This document shows positions 1 to 13,651 of a DNA stretch of 13,651 nt, piece after piece (the stretch's first letter is position 1; the number at the start of each line of letters is the position of its first letter). Position numbers and translations under genes: made by a program. This DNA is from a bacterium (lineage in GTDB: Bacteria; UBP15; UBA6099; DSWB01), in the NCBI GenBank assembly GCA_020061125.1, contig JAGUYV010000340.1, positions 1 through 13,651 on the forward strand, given 5' to 3'. The notes under the pieces were generated by a model. It had not been told where the DNA came from and ran no database searches. It was given only the letters and a program-made list of their open reading frames with translations.

Positions 1-740
1 GGATGCGCGGCCGGTGGCGCGCCACCGCCTTTCTGGCGCATCACGCGCATGTAGTGCGGCGCGCAGGTGGGCTTGAACTGTATGGGCGAGGTTTTGGATT
101 TCTCGTGGATCCACTCCAGGAGATCTTCGTAGTCCTGTCCGTTGATTTCCTGCCCTTCCTGGAGCATGGCGCGGCCCGTGGGCACGAGAAGAAAAATGTG
201 GTGCGCCACGGCGCCGATGGACACGGCCAGATCATGAATCTTTTCGATGTTCATGTAGTTCGCAATCGAAACTGTGGTGTTGATCTGGAACTCGATGCCG
301 TTTTTCCTGGCGATGGCCAGGCCGTTCATGGCTTTTTCAAATGCGCCCGGTTCGCCCCGGATGGCGTCGTGTGAAGCGGCGTCGTGACCGTCTATGCTCA
401 CGCTGATTCGCTTGATGCCCGACTCCTTCATTCTGTGAGCGGTGCCGTCCGTGATAAGAGTCCCGTTCGGCGCCATGACCATGCGCAAACCGATTTCAGT
501 TCCGTGCGCGGCCAGATCGTAGACATCGTCGCGCAGCATCGGCTCGCCGCCCGTGAGAATGATGATGGGCTGGCCGACTTCGCGAATCTGGTCGAGCAGG
601 GCGATTCCCTTATCGTGCGATAGTTCGCCTTCATATACATGGTCCTGGGCGCTGGCGCGGCAATGCACGCACGAGAGGTTGCAGCGCCGTGTGATTTCCC
701 AGGCTACGAGTCGCAGGGTGGAGTCAATGGGTTTGGCCAT
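1..740 (-). CDS. ahbD: AhbD-like heme b synthase, radical SAM (partial, C-terminus beyond window edge)
   Basis: Read on the minus strand from ATG at 740-738, 246 codons are visible before the left edge. Seen: the radical SAM cluster motif CNLSCVHC with cysteines 20, 24 and 27, the SAM-binding TGGEP at 63-67, SIDGHD at 115-120, and KPTCAPHY near 223-230, which brings an auxiliary cysteine (226) as in AhbD proteins. Family knowledge: AhbD oxidatively decarboxylates the two propionates of iron-coproporphyrin III to vinyl groups, giving heme b, the last step of the siroheme-dependent pathway, in the cytoplasm. The C-terminal SPASM-type cysteine cluster lies outside the window. The start is 2 nt after the ahbC stop, with GGAG inside the end of ahbC as ribosome site, so the two are translationally close. 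Another SPASM-type radical SAM maturase is the main alternative, but the AhbC neighbour and hemA upstream argue for AhbD. Confidence 0.88.
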   Translation of the reverse strand, partial: MAKPIDSTLRLVAWEITRRCNLSCVHCRASAQDHVYEGELSHDKGIALLDQIREVGQPIIILTGGEPMLRDDVYDLAAHGTEIGLRMVMAPNGTLITDGTAHRMKESGIKRISVSIDGHDAASHDAIRGEPGAFEKAMNGLAIARKNGIEFQINTTVSIANYMNIEKIHDLAVSIGAVAHHIFLLVPTGRAMLQEGQEINGQDYEDLLEWIHEKSKTSPIQFKPTCAPHYMRVMRQKGGGAPPAAH

Positions 741-742
741 GG

Positions 743-1927
743 TCATTCGACTCCGATCTCTGCGTTCGTGAGGTAGCACGCGGGTTCCTCGGCCCAGGGG
801 TCGCCGGTCATGGCTTCGGCGCGCACGCGGAAGCCACCGCCGCAGATGTCCAGGAACCGGCATTTTGCGCAGCGCCCCTTTACATATTGCAGCTTGTTCT
901 TCAGGCCTTTCATCAGCGGGTCCGAGGTGTCGTTCCAGATTTCGCTGAATGGCCGCTGGCGCACATTGCCGAAAGTGTAGTGGCGCCAGAACTGGTCGGG
1001 ATGCACATTGCCGAGGTGGTCCACGCAGGAAATGCGCTGTCCCGACGCGCTGCCGCGATTTCTTTTGAGCAACTGCATGACCTGCTCCGCCTCCTGTTCA
1101 CGGCCTTCATCAAGCAAGGTCAGATAGATAAACGGGCCGTCGGCCTGCAGGTCCACGGTGAGCATCTCCAGGACACGGCCGGATTCGGCCAGTTCCCGGG
1201 TTTTGCGGAAAATGTCGAGGAGCAGTTTGCGCTTTTCGGGTTTGGGCACATCGTGCTCGATGAGCTTGCTGCCCCGGCCGGCGTACACAAGATGATAGAA
1301 GCAGCAGCGCGGGATATTGTTTTCGACGATGAAATCGAACACGAAGGGCATGATTTCCCTGTAGTTGTCGTTGGTGATGGTGAAGCGGAGTCCGACCTTG
1401 ACGCCTGCGTCCATGCAGTGCTTGATGCCGGTGAGGGCCTGCTCGAATGCTCCTTTGACGCCGCGGAATTTGTCGTGCGTGCGCGGTTCGCCGTCTATGC
1501 TGATGCCCACATACACGAAGCCCGTGTCTTTGATGCGTTTCGCGGTTTTTGCGTCAATGAGCGTGCCGTTGCTGGAGATGGTGATGCGCATGCCACGGTC
1601 GCGCGCATACGCGCCCAGCTCGAACATGTCCGGGCGCATGAGAGGCTCTCCGCCGGAAAACAGGAGCACGGGCGCGCCCATGGCGGAGATGTCGTCTATC
1701 ATGGCCTTTGCCTCGGCCGTGGTTAGTTCACCGGGCGCCGGATTCGCGCATGCACTGGCGTAGCAGTGCGTGCATTTCAGATTGCAGGCCTGTGTGCTGT
1801 TCCACACCACAATGGGTTTGTCGCCATGCCCGCCATGCCCGCCACGGAGCGTGGGGCTGTCTTCTTCGTAACGGATGCGATCCGATTCCGTGAGAATGCC
1901 GCAGTACAGTCTGGTGATGCTGATCAT
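743..1927 (-). CDS. ahbC: AhbC-like 12,18-didecarboxysiroheme deacetylase, radical SAM/SPASM
   Basis: A 394-residue protein. Seen: N-terminal SxLYCG-like start, a short His/Gly-rich stretch (29-36), the radical SAM motif CNLKCTHC (cysteines 48, 52, 55), SGGEP at 91-95, SIDGEP at 143-148, and a C-terminal SPASM-like region with cysteines 301, 353, 356, 362 and 384 around CAKCRFLDICGGGFR and a GDPWAEEPACYLT ending characteristic of the AhbC group. Family knowledge: AhbC removes the acetate side chains of 12,18-didecarboxysiroheme to give iron-coproporphyrin III, the substrate of AhbD. Length is normal for the family. The ATG at 1927 is preceded by AGAAGAG about 8 nt upstream. It lies 92 nt after the CcsA-like gene and 2 nt before ahbD, consistent with one transcript. 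Radical SAM peptide maturases share the fold but not the ending or the context. Confidence 0.92.
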   Translation of the reverse strand: MISITRLYCGILTESDRIRYEEDSPTLRGGHGGHGDKPIVVWNSTQACNLKCTHCYASACANPAPGELTTAEAKAMIDDISAMGAPVLLFSGGEPLMRPDMFELGAYARDRGMRITISSNGTLIDAKTAKRIKDTGFVYVGISIDGEPRTHDKFRGVKGAFEQALTGIKHCMDAGVKVGLRFTITNDNYREIMPFVFDFIVENNIPRCCFYHLVYAGRGSKLIEHDVPKPEKRKLLLDIFRKTRELAESGRVLEMLTVDLQADGPFIYLTLLDEGREQEAEQVMQLLKRNRGSASGQRISCVDHLGNVHPDQFWRHYTFGNVRQRPFSEIWNDTSDPLMKGLKNKLQYVKGRCAKCRFLDICGGGFRVRAEAMTGDPWAEEPACYLTNAEIGVE

Positions 1928-2019
1928 TTGACAACTCTTCTTTCTTTAATGTTTTTCAGCGTTTCAAACATAGCTGGCCGCAATTTTGTTTCCCGCTGCA
2001 AATCCGCCGATGGCGCAAA

Positions 2020-2847
2020 TCAATTGAAAAAGGTGCCGTGCATGTCTTTGGATAAAAAATTCACGCCGAGGAAAGTGATGAGCATGACCACGAAACCCAG
2101 GATGAGGACGATGTTGGTGCCGCGGCCGCGCATGCCGCGCACAGCGCGCGTGTGCAGATACACGCCGTACACCACCCACAAAATGAATGACCATGTCTGT
2201 TTCGGGTTCCAGAGCCAGAACGCGTCGTCCACATTCATGCTCCAGATTGCGCCCGTGACAATCGCGATGGTCAGCAGGGGGAAGCCCATGCTCACGAACC
2301 GGTAGCTCATGGTGTCGAGCCAGTCCAGCGCGGGCAGCTTGAGCCGCGACGGCGCACGCTTGACTTTGAGAAAATACTCCTTGAGGAAATACGCCAGCGC
2401 GGACACAAACGCGAGGGTGAAAAAAGCGTAGGCCGTGAATGCGAACGGAACATGGAAATAGAGCCACTTGCTTTTGAGGATCGGCACCAGGCCTGACGCT
2501 TTGTTCGTGGTGAAGAATGCGAATGAAAGCCCGAGCACGGCCAGAGGCGAGACAAACATTCCCAGGGAATAATTCTGGAACACGGTCTGCATGATCGCGT
2601 ATGCCGCAGCCAGGATCCACGAAAAGAGCATCATGGTCTCGAAAGTATTCGCGGCCGGGAAATGCCCGGAATCCACCCAGCGCGCGATGAGCAGCGCCGT
2701 GTGCAGGGCCACGGCGAGCCAGATGCCCCGCGCCAGAGCGCGCTTGAGCGCTTCGCGGCCCCACAGCGCCGCCGCGCCGAGCGTGATGCTCAAAATCAGA
2801 TATGCCGCAATGGTCGCAACAAGGAGAATGATCACGGCCTGTCCCAT
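2020..2847 (-). CDS. CcsA/HemX-family integral membrane protein (cytochrome c assembly family)
   Basis: 275 residues with about eight hydrophobic segments (roughly 4-28, 42-58, 68-90, 94-113, 128-155, 182-203, 217-231, 245-264). Family landmarks seen: SGHFPAANTFE with His62, YFHVPFAF with His132, WLWNPKQTW at 211-219 followed by YLHTR with His232, and GVNFLSKDMHG ending in His270. These match the periplasmic and membrane histidines of CcsA/ResC/HemX proteins. The tryptophan-rich motif is off-consensus: where CcsA proteins have WGxxWxWDPK, this has DDAFWLWNPK. The gene starts 2 nt after the hemA stop, with AAGGAA inside hemA as ribosome site. Known roles of relatives are heme export for cytochrome c maturation (CcsA) and control of HemA level (Bacillus HemX). 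The hemA-adjacent position makes a HemX-like role at least as likely, so no symbol is assigned. Confidence 0.85.
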   Translation of the reverse strand: MGQAVIILLVATIAAYLILSITLGAAALWGREALKRALARGIWLAVALHTALLIARWVDSGHFPAANTFETMMLFSWILAAAYAIMQTVFQNYSLGMFVSPLAVLGLSFAFFTTNKASGLVPILKSKWLYFHVPFAFTAYAFFTLAFVSALAYFLKEYFLKVKRAPSRLKLPALDWLDTMSYRFVSMGFPLLTIAIVTGAIWSMNVDDAFWLWNPKQTWSFILWVVYGVYLHTRAVRGMRGRGTNIVLILGFVVMLITFLGVNFLSKDMHGTFFN

Positions 2848-2849
2848 GG

Positions 2850-4154
2850 CTATTTCCTTTCCCCGTTGTTATCGCCGCCGTCCGCAGGTTCGAGATCGAA
2901 CAGCTTCTTGAGCGCTTCCATGTACGCGGCGCCGTCGTTGTCGGCCGCGGCTTCCTTGAGGCGCACCGTGGGCTGGTGCAGAATCTTGTTCGTGATGGCG
3001 CGCGTGAGCAGTGTGATGGCCTGCTGGTCTTCATCGGACAAGTGTCCGAATTTTTTCATGGCCTTGCGCAGTTCTTTTTCTCGGATGGATTCGATTTTGG
3101 AACGGAAATGGGTGAGCACGGGAACGGCCTCGCGGCCCGACATCCAGGCGTCCCACTCGCCCAATTCCTGCATGATGATGGTCTCGACTTTGACGATTTC
3201 CTTGCGCCGTTTTTCCAGGTTCTTTTGCACCACGGTTTTGAGATCGTCAATATTGTAAAGAAACACGCTGGAGAGTTTGGCCACATCGGGATCCACATCG
3301 CGCGGCACTGCAATGTCCGCGATGTACAGGGGCCGGCCCCGGCGGCGCTGAACGGCTTTCCTGACATCGGCGTAGTGAATGATGAAATGCGGGGCCGCGG
3401 TCGAGGAGATCACCACATCCGCGGATTCGAGCAGTGCGGGCACCTTGTCAATGGAAGCGGGCGTTGCTCCCAGAACTGCGGCCGTATCCTGCGCCTTGGA
3501 CAGCGTACGGTTGGCCACGGTGATGTTGCAGGGGCCGAGATTCTTGAGGTGATTACACGCCACTTCGCACATTTTGCCTGCGCCCACGATGAGCACATTT
3601 TTGCCCTTGAGATCGCTGAAAATCTGGCGGGCCATGTCTATGGCGGTCTGGGCCACGGACACGGGGTTGCGGCAGATGGCGGTTTCCGTGCGCGCCCGTT
3701 TGCCGACTTTTATGGCCTGGTTGAACAGCGAGTTCAAAATCTCGCCCGTGGCGTGTTCCTCCATGGCGTGCTGATACGCGGCCTTGACCTGCGCCAGCAC
3801 CTGCCCCTCTCCCACAATCATGGAGTCCAGGCCGCATGAGACGCGGAACAGGTGCTCCGCGGCTTCGCCTCCCCGGTAACTGAAAAACCATTTCTGGGAT
3901 TCCGCTGTATCGGGATCCACCCCGAACCGTTCTGCTATGAACCTGTTGATAATCGAAAGCGTGTCATGGTAAGTGGGCGCGCAGACATACAGCTCCGTGC
4001 GGTTGCATGTACACAGGAGCAGTGCTTCCTGAACCGGCGATCTCTGCGCCAGCTCGGCGGAAGCCTGTCCCAGCGCGGATTCGGGAAGCGCGAATTTTTC
4101 GCGCACCGTCACCGGGGCGCTGTAGTGGTTGAGGCCTTTAACGACAATCACCAT
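2850..4154 (-). CDS. hemA: Glutamyl-tRNA reductase
   Basis: 434 residues from ATG at 4154. A TTG four codons upstream (4166) is in frame, but the family N-terminus begins like MVIVVKGLNHYSAPV, and GGAA sits 7 nt before the ATG. Seen: the catalytic region LLLCTCNRTELY with Cys50 at the canonical position, GEGQVLAQVKAAYQ, NPVSVAQTAIDMA, a Rossmann motif VLIVGAGKM in the NADPH domain, VANRTLSKA, and a C-terminal dimerisation helix region. Function: reduces glutamyl-tRNA(Glu) to glutamate-1-semialdehyde with NADPH, the first committed step of C5 tetrapyrrole synthesis in the cytosol. It is the first gene of the leftward heme operon, so the pathway entry enzyme and the final heme enzymes are co-transcribed. 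The length is in the usual range and all key motifs are intact. Confidence 0.97.
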   Translation of the reverse strand: MVIVVKGLNHYSAPVTVREKFALPESALGQASAELAQRSPVQEALLLCTCNRTELYVCAPTYHDTLSIINRFIAERFGVDPDTAESQKWFFSYRGGEAAEHLFRVSCGLDSMIVGEGQVLAQVKAAYQHAMEEHATGEILNSLFNQAIKVGKRARTETAICRNPVSVAQTAIDMARQIFSDLKGKNVLIVGAGKMCEVACNHLKNLGPCNITVANRTLSKAQDTAAVLGATPASIDKVPALLESADVVISSTAAPHFIIHYADVRKAVQRRRGRPLYIADIAVPRDVDPDVAKLSSVFLYNIDDLKTVVQKNLEKRRKEIVKVETIIMQELGEWDAWMSGREAVPVLTHFRSKIESIREKELRKAMKKFGHLSDEDQQAITLLTRAITNKILHQPTVRLKEAAADNDGAAYMEALKKLFDLEPADGGDNNGERK

Positions 4155-4171
4155 GGCTTGTTCCAAAGGTT

Positions 4172-6764: not shown

Positions 6765-6806
6765 ATGAACGAATTGAACAGGGACAAAATCACGGGAGGC
6801 GGATCC

Positions 6807-7811
6807 ATGAAACTGGCGCGAATTGCCATGATCGGAGCGGCGCTGGTGTTCGTGCTGCTGGCCGCACCTGCGGCGCGGGCGCAACTGGACGGCAGTCTTC
6901 CTCCGGGAACCCAGGAAGTGCTCGAAGAGATTCAGCGCACTATGTATCCGCCCTGGCTGCATACCGTCACCCTGGAACCGGACCCGCCACGCGCAGGGGA
7001 GCCAACTCTTGTTTCCGCGGAAATTTACAGCGACGCCAACAAAATCAACGACAAGGCCATAGAAGCCTATCTCTTCTATTCCACAGATGAGGCCAGAACC
7101 TGGGAAGTCATCGAGATGGACGACAAAGGGAGCGCGCGATACTGGGAGGCGGAGCTGCCGCCGTTCGAACCGGGCACGGAGGTGTGGTACGGGTTCAGCG
7201 CGGGCGACGCCACAGGCAATGTGTTCATGGAAACCCCGTGCTATGTTACGACCTGGCCCCCGGAAGATGACACATGCATGTTCGACATCGCCCTGGACGA
7301 ACCGCCCGTTGACGATCCCCGGCAGCTTATTCCCAACGATTTTGACATACGCCACATGAAGGCCGGCGTTGACGAAGACAATCTTTACATCGAAATGACG
7401 GTTGAGGGCAGCATCGAGCCAGGCTCCGTTTCACCGGCTTACATGCATCTGTACGGGTTCGGCGTGGCCAACATGGACAAGGGAAATCCCACGGACATAG
7501 TGTCACAGGGATTCCTCGGCCTCTATGTGCCTCTGGCCCATGTCGCCAACATGCAGCCGTGCATGATCGTCTCCCAGCCCCACAACGAAATCCTGTTCAC
7601 TTCGGATTTCATTCAGTGCCACGCGCAGGGCGAGCATCTGTGGTTCCGCATAGACAACAGGCAGATCGGACCAACCCGGCCCAAGGGGCATTTGAAGATC
7701 ATCGCCGCCAACGGCGTGGTCACTTCCATCGCGCCGTTCGGCGGCATGTATTACGACTACACCCATGTCACTTCCCTGTCTCTCAAGGGCCGGTCCTTCG
7801 TGGTCGAGTGA
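6807..7811 (+). CDS. Exported protein of unknown function with an Ig/FN3-like N-terminal half
   Basis: I do not recognise this protein. The start is ATG 6807, with GGAGG 7 nt upstream; the frame is open earlier, but those codons precede a clear signal peptide. Seen in 334 residues: a signal peptide MKLARIAM...PAARA with AxA cleavage after residue 25 (signal peptidase I, not lipidated). Residues about 55-150 are beta-rich, with aromatic and acidic turns such as ARTWEVIEMD and a GTEVWYGFSAGDATGN stretch resembling bacterial Ig/FN3 or carbohydrate-binding modules. Residues about 175-334 contain KAGVDEDNLYIEM, a Gly/aromatic-rich middle and a SLSLKGRSFVVE end, with no motif I can name. Cysteines at 145, 157, 252 and 271 could form periplasmic disulfides. 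No membrane anchor follows the signal. It lies between the phosphoesterase and sugar importer genes, so a role in extracellular substrate binding is conceivable but unproven. Confidence 0.75.
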   Translation: MKLARIAMIGAALVFVLLAAPAARAQLDGSLPPGTQEVLEEIQRTMYPPWLHTVTLEPDPPRAGEPTLVSAEIYSDANKINDKAIEAYLFYSTDEARTWEVIEMDDKGSARYWEAELPPFEPGTEVWYGFSAGDATGNVFMETPCYVTTWPPEDDTCMFDIALDEPPVDDPRQLIPNDFDIRHMKAGVDEDNLYIEMTVEGSIEPGSVSPAYMHLYGFGVANMDKGNPTDIVSQGFLGLYVPLAHVANMQPCMIVSQPHNEILFTSDFIQCHAQGEHLWFRIDNRQIGPTRPKGHLKIIAANGVVTSIAPFGGMYYDYTHVTSLSLKGRSFVVE

Positions 7812-7831: not shown

Positions 7832-7860
7832 TTTACATTTGATATGCATAGAAGTATGAT
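7832..7860 (+). promoter_or_regulatory. Strong sigma70-type promoter of the sugar importer operon
   Basis: TTTACA (7832-7837, 5 of 6), exactly 17 nt, then TATGAT (7855-7860, 5 of 6). Predicted start near 7867; leader about 84 nt to the GTG at 7951. It lies only 20 nt after the stop of the preceding gene, so the importer has its own promoter. The -10 overlaps a palindromic box. Confidence 0.6.
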
Positions 7861-7885
7861 CCCGGATAATTGGAATCCCGGATTC
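7858..7885 (+). promoter_or_regulatory. Candidate operator: two palindromic ATCCCGGAT boxes overlapping -10/+1
   Basis: ATCCCGGAT occurs at 7859-7867 and again at 7875-7883. Each copy is a perfect odd-centred inverted repeat (ATCC-C-GGAT), and the second extends to a perfect 13-bp palindrome, GAATCCCGGATTC (7873-7885). Their centres are 16 bp apart, about one and a half helical turns. They cover the end of the -10 hexamer and the predicted start, where a repressor would block RNA polymerase. No regulator gene lies in the window. Confidence 0.5.
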
Positions 7886-7935
7886 GCGCGTGCGGCAGCA
7901 AAGCCGGATTGTGCGCGCCGGGAGGTATGGCCACA

Positions 7936-7940
7936 GGGAG
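7936..7940 (+). promoter_or_regulatory. Ribosome binding site supporting the GTG start of the ATPase gene
   Basis: GGGAG lies 10 nt before GTG 7951. A second GGAGG at 7921-7925 is only 1 nt from ATG 7927 and cannot serve that codon. Starting at GTG 7951 places the conserved ALEMRGIVKEFPGV beginning at the distance usual for the family. Confidence 0.55.
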
Positions 7941-7950
7941 AGAAACAGCA

Positions 7951-9507
7951 GTGAGCGGGTCCCCGGACACAGCCCTGGAAATGCGAGGCATCGTCAAGGA
8001 ATTTCCGGGCGTTAAAGCGCTCAAGGATGTGACCTTTTCGTGCGTGCAGGGAGAGGTGCATGGGCTTGTGGGCGAAAATGGCGCGGGCAAAAGCACGCTC
8101 ATGAAAGTGTTGAGCGGCGTGCATCCCTATCCCACATACGACGGCGAGATTTTTATCAAGGGCAAGCTGGCGCGCTTTCCGGGCACGCGCGAAGCCGAGC
8201 GCGCGGGCATCGCCATCATCCATCAGGAACTTAATCTCATCGCGGAACTCACCGTGGCCGGAAACATGTTCCTGGGCCGCGAGCCGGTCAAGCGGCCGTT
8301 CGGCGTCATTGACATAAAGAAAATGAACGCGGACGCGCAAAAATATCTGTCCGCATTCATTATGAATCTGGATCCCGGAACCCTGGTCAAGGACCTGTCC
8401 GTGGGCAAGCAGCAGATGGTGGAAATCGCCAAAGCCCTGTCCATCAACGCAAAAGTCCTTGTGCTTGACGAACCCACCAGCGCGCTCACGGAAACCGAGA
8501 CCGCCTGCCTGTTCCAGGTGGTGCGCGAACTCAAAAAACAGAATGTCACCATGATTTACATATCGCACAAGCTCGAAGAGATCTTCGAGATCTGCGACCG
8601 GGTCACGGTGCTGCGCGACGGCGAAACCGTGGGCACGCAGGATATCCGCGATCTGGACAGGGACAAGCTCGTATCCCTCATGGTGGGGCGTGACCTGACC
8701 AATCTGTATCCGGAGCGCGCGGCGCGCATCGGGGACGAAGTACTGCGCGTCAGCAATCTGAATGTGGCGCATCCGTTCCTTCCCGGAGAGCGCGTGGTGC
8801 GCGATGTGAGTTTCAGCGCGCGGCGCGGCGAAGTTCTCGGGATCAGCGGCCTCATGGGCAGCGGCCGCAGCGAACTGGTCACAGCGTTGTTCGGCGCGTT
8901 TCCCGCGGATGTGCGTGGCGAGGTGTTTATCGAAGGACGCAGGGTGCAGTTGAAATCCCCGCGCAAGGCCATCAGGGACGGCCTCGCCCTGGTCACCGAG
9001 GACCGAAAGCAATACGGCCTGGTATTGGATATGAGCGTGGGAGAAAATGTCACCCTCGCTTGCCTGGACACCATCAGCCCCATGCAATGGATCCCCGCAA
9101 AGCGCGAATTGGAATGCATTGACAAGTATTTGAAGGAGCTGAACATCAAGGCGGCCACGCACCGCGTGGCGGTCAAAACCTTGAGCGGCGGCAACCAGCA
9201 GAAGGTGGTTATCGCCAAATGGCTGGCCAACGCGCCCGGAATCCTGATACTAGACGAACCCACGCGCGGAGTGGATGTGGGCGCGCGGTTCGAGATTTAC
9301 CAGATCATGAACAGGCTGGCCGAGGCCGGCGTGTGCATCATCATGGTGTCTTCGGAAATGCAGGAAGTGCTGGGCATGAGCGACCGCATACTGGTCATGC
9401 ACGAGGGACGGCTCACCGGCGAGTTCACACGCGCCGAGGCCACGCAGGAAAAAATCATGGCATGCGCCACCGGGGCGGCCCCGGCCGCGCACGGCCGCGA
9501 TTCTTGA
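7951..9507 (+). CDS. Sugar ABC importer ATPase, tandem-domain RbsA/XylG/MglA type
   Basis: 518 residues from GTG 7951. Two ABC domains in one chain. The first has Walker A GENGAGKST (41-49), a Q-loop in IIHQELN (90-96), a signature region DLSVGKQQ (148-155), Walker B VLVLDEP (169-175) and ISHKLEE. The second has a degenerate Walker A GLMGSGRSE (300-308), an intact signature LSGGNQQK (411-418), Walker B ILILDEP (431-437), and Ser where the switch His is normally found. This asymmetric pattern is normal for carbohydrate importers of the CUT2 class. Function: powers uptake of a monosaccharide through the permease encoded two genes downstream. PTYDGEI after the first Walker A resembles XylG/GguA proteins, but the substrate cannot be fixed. 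The binding-protein gene follows after 29 nt. It is first in the operon behind the strong promoter and candidate operator. Confidence 0.93.
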   Translation: MSGSPDTALEMRGIVKEFPGVKALKDVTFSCVQGEVHGLVGENGAGKSTLMKVLSGVHPYPTYDGEIFIKGKLARFPGTREAERAGIAIIHQELNLIAELTVAGNMFLGREPVKRPFGVIDIKKMNADAQKYLSAFIMNLDPGTLVKDLSVGKQQMVEIAKALSINAKVLVLDEPTSALTETETACLFQVVRELKKQNVTMIYISHKLEEIFEICDRVTVLRDGETVGTQDIRDLDRDKLVSLMVGRDLTNLYPERAARIGDEVLRVSNLNVAHPFLPGERVVRDVSFSARRGEVLGISGLMGSGRSELVTALFGAFPADVRGEVFIEGRRVQLKSPRKAIRDGLALVTEDRKQYGLVLDMSVGENVTLACLDTISPMQWIPAKRELECIDKYLKELNIKAATHRVAVKTLSGGNQQKVVIAKWLANAPGILILDEPTRGVDVGARFEIYQIMNRLAEAGVCIIMVSSEMQEVLGMSDRILVMHEGRLTGEFTRAEATQEKIMACATGAAPAAHGRDS

Positions 9508-9536: not shown

Positions 9537-10481
9537 ATGAAAAAGAGAACCGCAACAGCCGCAACACTTCTGGCCGCGCTGGGTTTCGTATTGTGCGCGG
9601 CGCTGATCCTGGCCCCGTCATGCAGCAAAAAGGGCAGCGGGAAGAAAGTTATCGGCGTTTCCCTGCTCAAAGAAAACGACGACTTTTACAAAACCTTAAA
9701 AAAAGGCCTTCAGGAAACCGGCGAAAAGATGGGCTATGAAATGGTGATCCTGTCCGCGGACACGGACGAAGACAAGCAGGACAAGAACATGGACGCCATC
9801 CTGCTCAAGAATCCGTCGGCCGTGGTTCTCTGTCCGGTGAATTCCCGGGGTGTGCACACGATTATCAAAAAAGCCACGGCGCAGAATGTGCCCGTGTTCA
9901 CTGCGGACATCGCCGCGGAACGGGGCGAAGTGGTGGCGCACATCGCATCCGACAATTACATGGGCGGTCAGCTCGCGGCCGAACGCATGGCCAAGCTCAT
10001 CGGCAAGGGCGGACTCGTGACTATTATTTACCAGCCCGGCACCGAGTCCGTGGCTGCGCGCGTCAAGGGCTTCGTGGATAAAGGCGGCGAATTGGGCCTC
10101 ACCTTCATAGAAGACACGGACGGCAATGTCATGCAATACGACGGCAACGACGACCAGCAGAAGAGCGAGGAAAAAGCCAAGACCGCCATCGCGGGCAACC
10201 CGGCCCTCAAAGGCATCTTCGCGGCCAATGACAACATGGCCACGGGCGCGGAAGCCGCCATCCTGGGCAGCGGCCGCGGCGACATCGTGCTCATCGGTTA
10301 CGACGCCTCGCCCCTGGCGCAGAAAAAGATTGACGCGGGCGGCGTGTGGAAAGCCGATGTGATGCAGAATCCTTACGACATCGGCAAGATCACCGTCGAG
10401 ACCATTGACAAGCACATCAAGGGCGAAAAGGTCAACGCCGTGATCGGCGTGGCCGTGGGCCTGTACGACGGCAAGAAATAA
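9537..10481 (+). CDS. Sugar-binding lipoprotein of the ABC importer, RbsB-like
   Basis: 314 residues; ATG 9537 has AGGGAGG 6 nt upstream. Seen: a basic start (MKKR), a hydrophobic stretch and a lipobox-like LAPSC, with lipidation expected at Cys29, followed by a Ser/Lys/Gly linker. The mature part is a type I periplasmic binding fold (Peripla_BP_4): KKVIGVSLLKENDDFYKTLKKG opens the first lobe, AVVLCPVNSRG and VPVFTADIAA form strand and hinge elements, ASDNYMGGQLAAE is the usual motif after the hinge, and GIFAANDNMATGAEAAI and VLIGYDAS lie in the second lobe. Function: captures a pentose or hexose outside the cytoplasmic membrane and delivers it to the permease. It lies between ATPase and permease genes, an uncommon order. 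RbsB is the nearest family by eye; specificity is uncertain. Confidence 0.92.
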   Translation: MKKRTATAATLLAALGFVLCAALILAPSCSKKGSGKKVIGVSLLKENDDFYKTLKKGLQETGEKMGYEMVILSADTDEDKQDKNMDAILLKNPSAVVLCPVNSRGVHTIIKKATAQNVPVFTADIAAERGEVVAHIASDNYMGGQLAAERMAKLIGKGGLVTIIYQPGTESVAARVKGFVDKGGELGLTFIEDTDGNVMQYDGNDDQQKSEEKAKTAIAGNPALKGIFAANDNMATGAEAAILGSGRGDIVLIGYDASPLAQKKIDAGGVWKADVMQNPYDIGKITVETIDKHIKGEKVNAVIGVAVGLYDGKK

Positions 10482-10529: not shown

Positions 10530-11498
10530 ATGGGCAAAAAAAATCCGGTTTTGAATTTTCTGATCGAAAACGGCATGTACATCGTCATGCTGCTGATTTT
10601 CGTATACTTCGCGGCGTCGGCGCCCGGGTTTCTCACCGCCAACAATCTGGCGCGCATTCCTCTTCAAAGCGCATTTGTGATTCTCATCGCCACGGGCATG
10701 ACCATGGTGATCATCACCGGCGGCATAGACCTGTCCGTAGGCTCGGTGGTGGCGTTCACGGCCGTGATCTTCTCGATTATTCTCAAGCGTTACGAGCTTG
10801 CCGTGCCCCTGGCCGTGCTCGCGGCCCTGGCCGCGGGATCCCTGTCAGGCGTCACCAGCGGGTTTTTCGTGGTCAAGTTCCGCGTGCCCCCGTTCATCGC
10901 CACCCTGGCCATGATGACCATTGCGCGAGGTCTGGCGCGCCTGTTCGCGCAGAACACCAAGATCTTCATTGAAAACCCCGGCATCGAGAAGTACAGCGAT
11001 TTCATCATGATTAAGCAGGTGGCCGTGACCGAGGCCATCGGCATCCCGTACCTTGTCATTCTCATGCTCGCCGTGGTAACCCTCCTTGGTCTGGTGTTGA
11101 TGAAGACGCGCTTCGGCCGCTACATCATCGCTACAGGAGGCAACGAGGAGGCTTCCCGGCTCTCGGGCGTGAATGTGAACCGGGTCAAATTCCTGGTCTA
11201 TGTGATCAATGCGTTTCTGGCCGCAGCCGTGGGCATCATGATGGCCAGCAAGTTCATGAACGGCAATCCCGAGTTCGGCGTGATGTGGGAACTGGACGCC
11301 ATCGCCGCATGCGTGGTGGGCGGCACCAGCCTCATGGGCGGCAAGGGCAATATCTTCAAGGTGCTCCTGGGCGCGCTCCTCATCGGCATGCTCGACAACG
11401 GGCTGCTGATACAGGGTCGCAGCTCGGAAATGATTTACATCATCAAGGGAATAATCATTCTGGGCGCTGTAATTATTGATCAGATAAAAGAGCGGTGA
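10530..11498 (+). CDS. Sugar ABC importer permease, RbsC type
   Basis: 322 residues from ATG 10530. The frame also contains TTG two codons earlier, which I do not use. Only a weak GGGA lies upstream (10516-10519, spacing 10), suggesting modest translation. Seen: a largely hydrophobic chain with about eight to ten membrane segments, the family motif GGIDLSVGSVVAF (64-76), KFRVPPFIATLAMMTIARG in the middle, the cytoplasmic coupling region GGNEEASRLSGVNVNRVK, and VVGGTSLMGGKGNIF near the C-terminus. These place it in the BPD_transp_2 (CUT2 permease) family. Function: forms the membrane channel, probably as a homodimer, for the sugar delivered by the upstream lipoprotein. No second permease gene is present. 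Followed by a stem-loop at 11540-11567 that probably ends the importer unit. Confidence 0.93.
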   Translation: MGKKNPVLNFLIENGMYIVMLLIFVYFAASAPGFLTANNLARIPLQSAFVILIATGMTMVIITGGIDLSVGSVVAFTAVIFSIILKRYELAVPLAVLAALAAGSLSGVTSGFFVVKFRVPPFIATLAMMTIARGLARLFAQNTKIFIENPGIEKYSDFIMIKQVAVTEAIGIPYLVILMLAVVTLLGLVLMKTRFGRYIIATGGNEEASRLSGVNVNRVKFLVYVINAFLAAAVGIMMASKFMNGNPEFGVMWELDAIAACVVGGTSLMGGKGNIFKVLLGALLIGMLDNGLLIQGRSSEMIYIIKGIIILGAVIIDQIKER

Positions 11499-11659: not shown

Positions 11660-12118
11660 ATGGGTTTCAAAAAAATTTCCCTTGGCAGCGACCACGCGGG
11701 GTTTCAGATGAAACAGGCGCTGCTGGACTATTTCAAGGCCAGAGGCGTGGCCGTTGTGGATGTTGGCACGGGCAGCGCGGATTCGTGTGATTATCCCGAA
11801 TATGCGGAAAAAGCCGCGCGCATGGTGCCGGACGGTAGCGTGGATGCGTGCGTACTGGTGTGCGGCTCCGGCGTGGGCATGAGCATGGCCGCAAACAAGG
11901 TCGCGGGCGTGCGTGCATTCGTGTGCAGCGAACCCGTGAGCGCGCGCATGTCGCGCCTGCACAATGACTGCAACTGCATCTGCCTGGGCGGGCGCATGAT
12001 CGGACTCGAAATGGCGAAAGCGATTCTGGATTCATGGCTCGGCACGGATTTCGAGGGCGGCCGTCACCAGCGCCGGGTGGAACAGCTTGATGCGATCATT
12101 CAGAGAAATTCTGTCTAA
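11660..12118 (+). CDS. rpiB: Ribose-5-phosphate isomerase B (RpiB/LacAB family)
   Basis: 152 residues, typical family length; ATG 11660 has AAAGGAG about 10 nt upstream. Seen: SDHAGF at 10-15, DYPEYAEKAA at 44-53, the active-site loop VCGSGVGMSMAANK with Cys68 as the enolisation base (Cys66 in E. coli RpiB), HND beginning at His101, LGGRMIG, and the GGRHQRRV phosphate-binding end. Function: interconverts ribose 5-phosphate and ribulose 5-phosphate in the cytosol; relatives also isomerise allose 6-phosphate. The Thr after the catalytic loop Cys-Gly in E. coli is Ser here, a conservative change. Placement after a ribose/xylose-type importer suggests it handles the imported sugar after phosphorylation, but no kinase is present. 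LacA/LacB subunits share the fold; an intact Cys68 favours RpiB. Confidence 0.95.
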   Translation: MGFKKISLGSDHAGFQMKQALLDYFKARGVAVVDVGTGSADSCDYPEYAEKAARMVPDGSVDACVLVCGSGVGMSMAANKVAGVRAFVCSEPVSARMSRLHNDCNCICLGGRMIGLEMAKAILDSWLGTDFEGGRHQRRVEQLDAIIQRNSV

Positions 12119-12187: not shown

Positions 12188-13651
12188 ATGAAGCTCGTCA
12201 CAGCGGATCAGATGCGCGGACTGGACCGCGCGGCCATTGACACATACGGCATTCCCGGGGTCGTGCTCATGGAGAATGCGTCGCGCGCCGTGTTCGAGAT
12301 CATGGCGTCGCGCGCCGTGCCGCTGGGCGGCAGAAAAGTGTGCGTGGTGTGCGGCCGGGGCAACAACGGCGGGGACGGATTCGCCGTGGCGCGGCACCTG
12401 CTGAACGCGGGCGCGATCCCGGTTGCGGTTCTGGCCTCGGATCCTTCGTCCGTGTCCGGTGACGCTCGCACGAATCTTGATATCTGCCTCAAGCTCGGCA
12501 TCCCTGTTAAAAATGTAGCCGATGAGAAACAAATGCCCGCGTTGCGCGCCGCGTTGCGCAATGCGGATCTGATCGTGGATGCGCTGCTGGGAACCGGCGT
12601 CAAGGGCGCGCCTCGGCCTTTTTTCGCAAAAATCATCCGGGCTATGAACAAAAGGCAGGTTCCGGTGTACGCCGTGGATGTGCCGAGCGGCGTGGACGCG
12701 GATTCGGGCCGGGTTCCGGGCGAGGCCGTGCGCTCGGATCACACCATCACCTTTGGCGCGCCCAAAATCGGTCTTTTCGTGTATCCGGGCGCGGAATTCG
12801 CGGGCCAGGTCTATATCGCAGATATCGGTATTCCCACGCACTTGATCAGGGAACTCAAGACGGACGCGCATCTCACGGGACCAGCTTACATTGCGGCGCA
12901 TGTGAAGCCGCGGCGTGCGGATGCACACAAGGGCGACTGCGGGAAAGTCCTGGTCATAGGCGGTTCGCACGGCATGAGCGGCGCGGTGTGTCTGGCCGGC
13001 GCCAGCGCCCTGCGCACGGGCGCGGGACTGGTTCATCTTGCTGTGCCCGAGTGCATTTCACACATTGTGGACAAATCGTTCACCGAGGGCGTCACCATCC
13101 CGCTGCCGGATATGGACGGAACCCTGTCCGAACTGTGCATGGAGGATTTGCTGCCGCGCATGGGAGCGGCCAGCGCGATTATCCTCGGGCCGGGCCTAGG
13201 CGTGAACCGCGCCGTGTGCGAAGTGGCGGGACAGGTTCTGGCGCAGGCGCGCGTGCCGGTTGTCGTAGATGCCGACGGGCTGAATTGCCTGGCCCGCATG
13301 AAATCCGCGGCGTTCACAAAGCGGATGAAAGCGCCATTGATCCTCACGCCTCATCCCGGGGAAATGGCGAGGTTGCTTAAAAGCGATACCGGCGCCGTGC
13401 AGTCGGTCAGGCTCGACGCGGCGCGCGCATGCGCCCGGAAATTCCGCGCCACGGTGGTGCTCAAGGGCGCGTACTCGATCATCGCCGCGCCGCGCGGGGA
13501 TTGTTATGTGAATCCCACGGGCAATGCGGGCATGGCCACGGCAGGAAGCGGCGATGTGTTGAGCGGCGTGATTGGCGCGCTGGCGGGGGAGGGCGTGAAT
13601 CCCTTCGCAGCGGCCGTGTGCGGCGCGTACATCCACGGCCTGGCCGGGGAC
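12188..13651 (+). CDS. nnr: Bifunctional NAD(P)HX epimerase/dehydratase (partial at right edge)
   Basis: ATG 12188 has GGGAGG 6 nt upstream. 488 codons run open to the window edge; family members are near 500-520 residues, so only a short tail is missing. N-terminal YjeF_N epimerase domain: LMENASRAV (27-35), CGRGNNGGDGF (55-65), LLGTGVKG (133-140) and DVPSGVDADSG (164-174). C-terminal ribokinase-like dehydratase domain: HKGDCGKVLVIGGS (248-260) with GMSGA, LGPGLG (333-338), DADGLN (361-366), LTPHPGE (386-392) and GNAGMATAGSGDVLSG (445-460), containing the catalytic Asp456. Function: epimerises R-NAD(P)HX and dehydrates the S form with ADP or ATP, restoring NAD(P)H; a cytosolic metabolite-repair enzyme. 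GC is higher here than in the genes to the left. It may share a transcript with rpiB. Confidence 0.94.
   Translation, partial: MKLVTADQMRGLDRAAIDTYGIPGVVLMENASRAVFEIMASRAVPLGGRKVCVVCGRGNNGGDGFAVARHLLNAGAIPVAVLASDPSSVSGDARTNLDICLKLGIPVKNVADEKQMPALRAALRNADLIVDALLGTGVKGAPRPFFAKIIRAMNKRQVPVYAVDVPSGVDADSGRVPGEAVRSDHTITFGAPKIGLFVYPGAEFAGQVYIADIGIPTHLIRELKTDAHLTGPAYIAAHVKPRRADAHKGDCGKVLVIGGSHGMSGAVCLAGASALRTGAGLVHLAVPECISHIVDKSFTEGVTIPLPDMDGTLSELCMEDLLPRMGAASAIILGPGLGVNRAVCEVAGQVLAQARVPVVVDADGLNCLARMKSAAFTKRMKAPLILTPHPGEMARLLKSDTGAVQSVRLDAARACARKFRATVVLKGAYSIIAAPRGDCYVNPTGNAGMATAGSGDVLSGVIGALAGEGVNPFAAAVCGAYIHGLAGD

Follow-up and report, generated by a model that had tools for sequence, protein, structure and literature searches.

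The importer locus and its twin boxes

The window, by which we mean the whole 13,651-bp stretch of DNA analysed here, carries on its forward strand the genes of an RbsABC-type sugar importer, followed by rpiB and an NAD(P)H-hydrate repair gene that leaves the contig end at 13651 (Table 1). The importer, rpiB and the repair gene are presumed to form one operon, and the GTG start at 7951 agrees with the conserved start of the importer orthologues. The substrate of the importer is uncertain: the ATP-binding protein barely exceeds the cut-off of the xylose model PRK13549 (702.9 bits vs. 699), and the RbsB-like binding protein scored below all curated cut-offs. In family f3 (L203-L205), a 1416-aa GH38 alpha-mannosidase-like protein takes the place of rpiB behind the orthologous importer, and the importer may therefore not carry ribose.

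Two further features of the window stand apart from the importer genes. A 348-aa, apparently secreted protein without a Pfam match is encoded directly upstream of the importer promoter (6765-7811, + strand). On the minus strand at 1-4166 lie genes for two radical SAM proteins (one with a SPASM domain), a cytochrome c assembly protein and glutamyl-tRNA reductase; this cluster looks like heme biosynthesis, possibly by a siroheme-dependent route.

Table 1 Features of the importer locus, in window coordinates
Feature	Coordinates	Strand	Remarks
Sigma-70-like promoter TTTACA-17-TATGAT	7832..7860	+	10/12 consensus matches; TTTACA 7832-7837, 17-bp spacer, TATGAT 7855-7860
Box 1	7859..7867		ATCCCGGAT; lies across the tail of the -10 and the predicted +1
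Box 2	7873..7885		ATCCCGGAT (7875-7883) within the 13-bp palindrome GAATCCCGGATTC
Sugar ABC importer ATP-binding protein (RbsA/XylG type)	7951..9507	+	GTG start, preceded by AGGGAGAG (7935-7942)
RbsB-like sugar-binding protein	9537..10481	+	Peripla_BP_4
RbsC-like permease	10530..11498	+	BPD_transp_2
Ribose-5-phosphate isomerase B (rpiB), presumed same operon	11660..12118	+	TIGR01120 above cut-off
NAD(P)H-hydrate epimerase/dehydratase, presumed same operon	12188..13651	+	both yjeF domains above cut-off

The first-pass annotation had described two perfect 9-bp inverted repeats with a spacing of 16 bp, one of them extended to 13 bp, and re-inspection of the sequence found both. The two copies of the 9-mer start 16 bp apart and leave a gap of 7 bp. 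Each is an odd palindrome, ATCC-C-GGAT, with 4-bp arms and an unpaired central base; the extension to 13 bp is confined to box 2, the corresponding stretch around box 1 being TGATCCCGGATAA. Each box is close to self-complementary, so a single inverted repeat with arms of 9 bp around a 7-bp centre is an equally good description of the pair.

The boxes were also said to lie over the -10 and +1 of a well-formed promoter, and this description held, with box 1 at the -10/+1 and box 2 in the early leader. The promoter matches the consensus at 10 of 12 positions, and shuffling of the 501-bp region is expected to give only 0.2 matches as good. With the start site predicted from the -10 (about 7867), box 1 covers the final 2 bp of the -10 and reaches about +1, and box 2 occupies about +8 to +16, at the start of the leader.

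Frequency of the boxes in the genome

When the segment 7812-7950 was shuffled with its dinucleotides preserved, 10 of 30,000 shuffles held an odd palindrome of any sequence repeated at 9-40 bp. Genome-wide, ATCCCGGAT occurs at 83 single sites in 4.1 Mb, from which simple arithmetic gives about 0.05 expected pairs, and the window holds the sole pair with a gap of 2-30 bp. Repeated-palindrome pairs of any kind numbered 8 in 257 kb of the same genome; they were mostly GC-only words, and the window pair was the only one among them made of ATCCCGGAT. The pair is locally unusual, yet not beyond the reach of a reading of the whole genome.

A home-made codon-usage gene caller divided the 82 distinct perfect boxes into 61 coding and 21 non-coding ones. 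The non-coding share (21/82) exceeds the 12.9% of the sampled sequence that is non-coding (p 0.0014), and the excess falls to p 0.035 when the two sites of the window and three copies in a dispersed repeat are left out. The genes flanking the 21 non-coding perfect boxes are unrelated and have no common theme, and a regulon defined by the perfect box was rejected on these grounds together with the 61 of 82 boxes that are coding. The genome-wide motif search proposed by the first-pass annotation was thereby answered in two ways: the pair is unique, and the single copies are mostly coding and outline no regulon. The 13-bp palindrome has one further perfect copy (L112 2436-2448), which lies ~70 bp beyond the 3' end of the nearest called gene and not at a promoter position.

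Besides those of the window, two boxes fall in promoter-like sequences, one ahead of an Rrf2 regulator gene (L134) and the other ahead of an rpsT-like gene (L170), which we take to be rpsT from identification by eye only. The Rrf2 gene (1524-1952) has the promoter TTGACA-17-TATTTT, with one box in the spacer. Of random 9-mers from non-coding DNA, 13% overlap a promoter-like site, and two or three promoter boxes among about 20 are therefore the expected number. At both sites (L134 1450-1490 and L170 335-370) ATCCSGGAT stands in identical register, 2 bp past the -35 and with a 17-bp spacer; the count of boxes is at chance level.

The dispersed repeat is a non-coding sequence of ~200 bp with at least 8 near-identical copies (L192-L199; e.g., L192 around 1521, - strand), often just past gene ends. 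Its ends are hairpin-like (CCGGATTCGTC...GACGAATCC on the left, CCCAAATTC...GAATTTGGG on the right), and it looks like a MITE or a similar dispersed element. Its left end accounts for three of the non-coding boxes. The possibility that the boxes of the window have the same origin was considered, but the sequence common to window and repeat is only about 10-12 bp long, and the match was judged a coincidence.

Conservation and candidate regulators

Orthologues of the importer with 69-77% identity were found in five genomes of the same order. The first-pass annotation had proposed to look for the boxes upstream of orthologous importers, and there they were absent, both in these five genomes, all from other families of the order, and among the wider homologues (0/80 with a perfect box in the 400 bp preceding the match). 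The other six of the 7 genomes of the phylum had no twin box; when 2 mismatches were allowed, one twin appeared, in G006, beside an unrelated gene.

The nearest genomes compared are from other families, with different upstream genes or leaders, which makes the conservation test a weak one. Four genomes of family f3 have a conserved leader, which is unlike that of the window, and in G001 a different gene lies directly upstream of the orthologous importer. It is plausible that an operator here would be specific to the lineage. Absence from orthologous operons and many copies in coding sequence had been named beforehand as what would speak against a regulatory role; we found no conservation among orthologues and mostly coding single copies, the former by this weak test.

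No transcription factor gene was found in the window, and the assembly was searched for the LacI, DeoR, RpiR, GntR and ROK families. LacI (PF00356, E 0.001), DeoR and RpiR gave no match in the assembly, whose completeness of 79% leaves their absence uncertain. The doubt raised at first reading about a regulator of the LacI/GalR type is in keeping with the lack of a detectable LacI-family protein in this 79%-complete genome, and a regulator of the pair would probably not be of LacI, DeoR or RpiR type. Two GntR/FCD genes are present, with no non-coding box within 1 mismatch nearby; autoregulation by GntR proteins is not obligatory. A ROK repressor was rejected, as both ROK proteins start directly with the ROK domain; because they are without an N-terminal HTH, they look like kinases. 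Of the regulator genes noted here, only that of Rrf2 carries a box in its own promoter, at a frequency explained by chance. Among the literature matches listed for the 9-mer, no title or abstract mentioned such an operator.

A putative operator and its alternatives

The likeliest reading, in which we place about even confidence, is that the pair is a lineage-specific operator for a repressor acting on the importer/rpiB operon. A repressor protein would bind the ATCCCGGAT pair across -10/+1/+16 and sterically block RNA polymerase from the importer/rpiB promoter until an inducer releases it; this inducer would probably be the transported sugar or its phosphate. This reading is argued for by the good promoter with the boxes on its -10/+1 and early leader, by the rarity of such a pair in shuffles (10/30,000) and its uniqueness in the genome, by the sugar importer and rpiB downstream, which make up a class of operon that is usually regulated, and by the modest over-representation of boxes in non-coding DNA (21/82 vs. 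12.9%). Against it stand the lack of a box upstream of orthologues and homologues and of a second twin in the 7 genomes of the phylum, the missing regulon with a non-coding excess that shrinks to p 0.035, and the lack of a regulator gene in the window and of a box close to either GntR gene. An operator is a plausible reading that the comparative evidence does not support, and one that would be ordinary if true.

The earlier proposal of a repressor operator with two dimer sites agrees with the promoter-occluding geometry, whereas the two dimer sites are not established. The boxes are 16 bp apart from centre to centre, about 1.5 turns, so that two dimers would sit on opposite faces of the helix. 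Two dimers and one larger dimer on a single 25-bp operator are equally compatible with the sequence.

The putative operator resembles the LacI-family (RbsR-type) operators of ribose operons in that a symmetric site overlaps the promoter of an RbsABC-type importer. LacI sites are even, CG-centred palindromes; here, in contrast, the site is the odd-centred ATCC-N-GGAT, and the 79%-complete genome has no detected LacI-family gene. In E. coli rpiB is under RpiR control, and the present operon is similar in combining rpiB with a sugar importer of the same superfamily, but no RpiR-family HTH was detected in the 79%-complete genome. The Rrf2 gene at L134 has ATCCCGGAT in its own promoter, as the importer does, but as a single box in the spacer instead of a twin over the -10/+1; known Rrf2 sites are longer interrupted palindromes. 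We consider it improbable, if conceivable, that a different regulator family, possibly this Rrf2 protein, controls the importer operon through a compact ATCC-N-GGAT operator.

The main rival of the operator reading is chance, by which two copies of a non-rare 9-mer fell near a promoter and were noticed through palindrome scanning. We take this as a serious possibility, held with somewhat less than even confidence. The 83 single copies, most of them coding, fit such an origin, as do the lack of conservation, the chance rate at which non-coding boxes overlap promoters, the roughly 0.05 ATCCCGGAT pairs expected genome-wide and the 8 pairs of any palindrome in 257 kb. Chance accounts less readily for the low yield of local shuffles (only 10/30,000), for the coincidence of the pair with the best promoter-like site of the region, and for the composition of the other palindrome pairs, which are mostly GC-only words.

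The boxes might instead work as RNA, pairing mutually or with leader sequence close to the ribosome-binding site: box 1 can pair with box 2, and the predicted fold of the leader pairs box 2 with CCGGGA. However, the predicted start at about 7867 leaves box 1 untranscribed, the folds are not significantly better than those of shuffles (z -1.0 and -0.35), and there is no Rfam match. Since box 1 is probably not transcribed and nothing sets the folds apart, we disfavour an RNA hairpin and give it very little credence. It is likewise very improbable that box 1 is a mere G+C-rich discriminator for growth-rate or ppGpp control and box 2 incidental, a reading suggested by the CCCGG immediately after TATGAT that leaves the exact repeat 16 bp downstream unaccounted for.

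If no repressor binds the pair, the locus shows how easily an operator-trained eye finds an operator in a single genome. If the putative operator is indeed bound by a repressor, it would offer a first way into the control of sugar genes in an uncultured phylum represented here by only 7 genomes, and in a genome in which a search for the usual sugar-repressor families came up empty.
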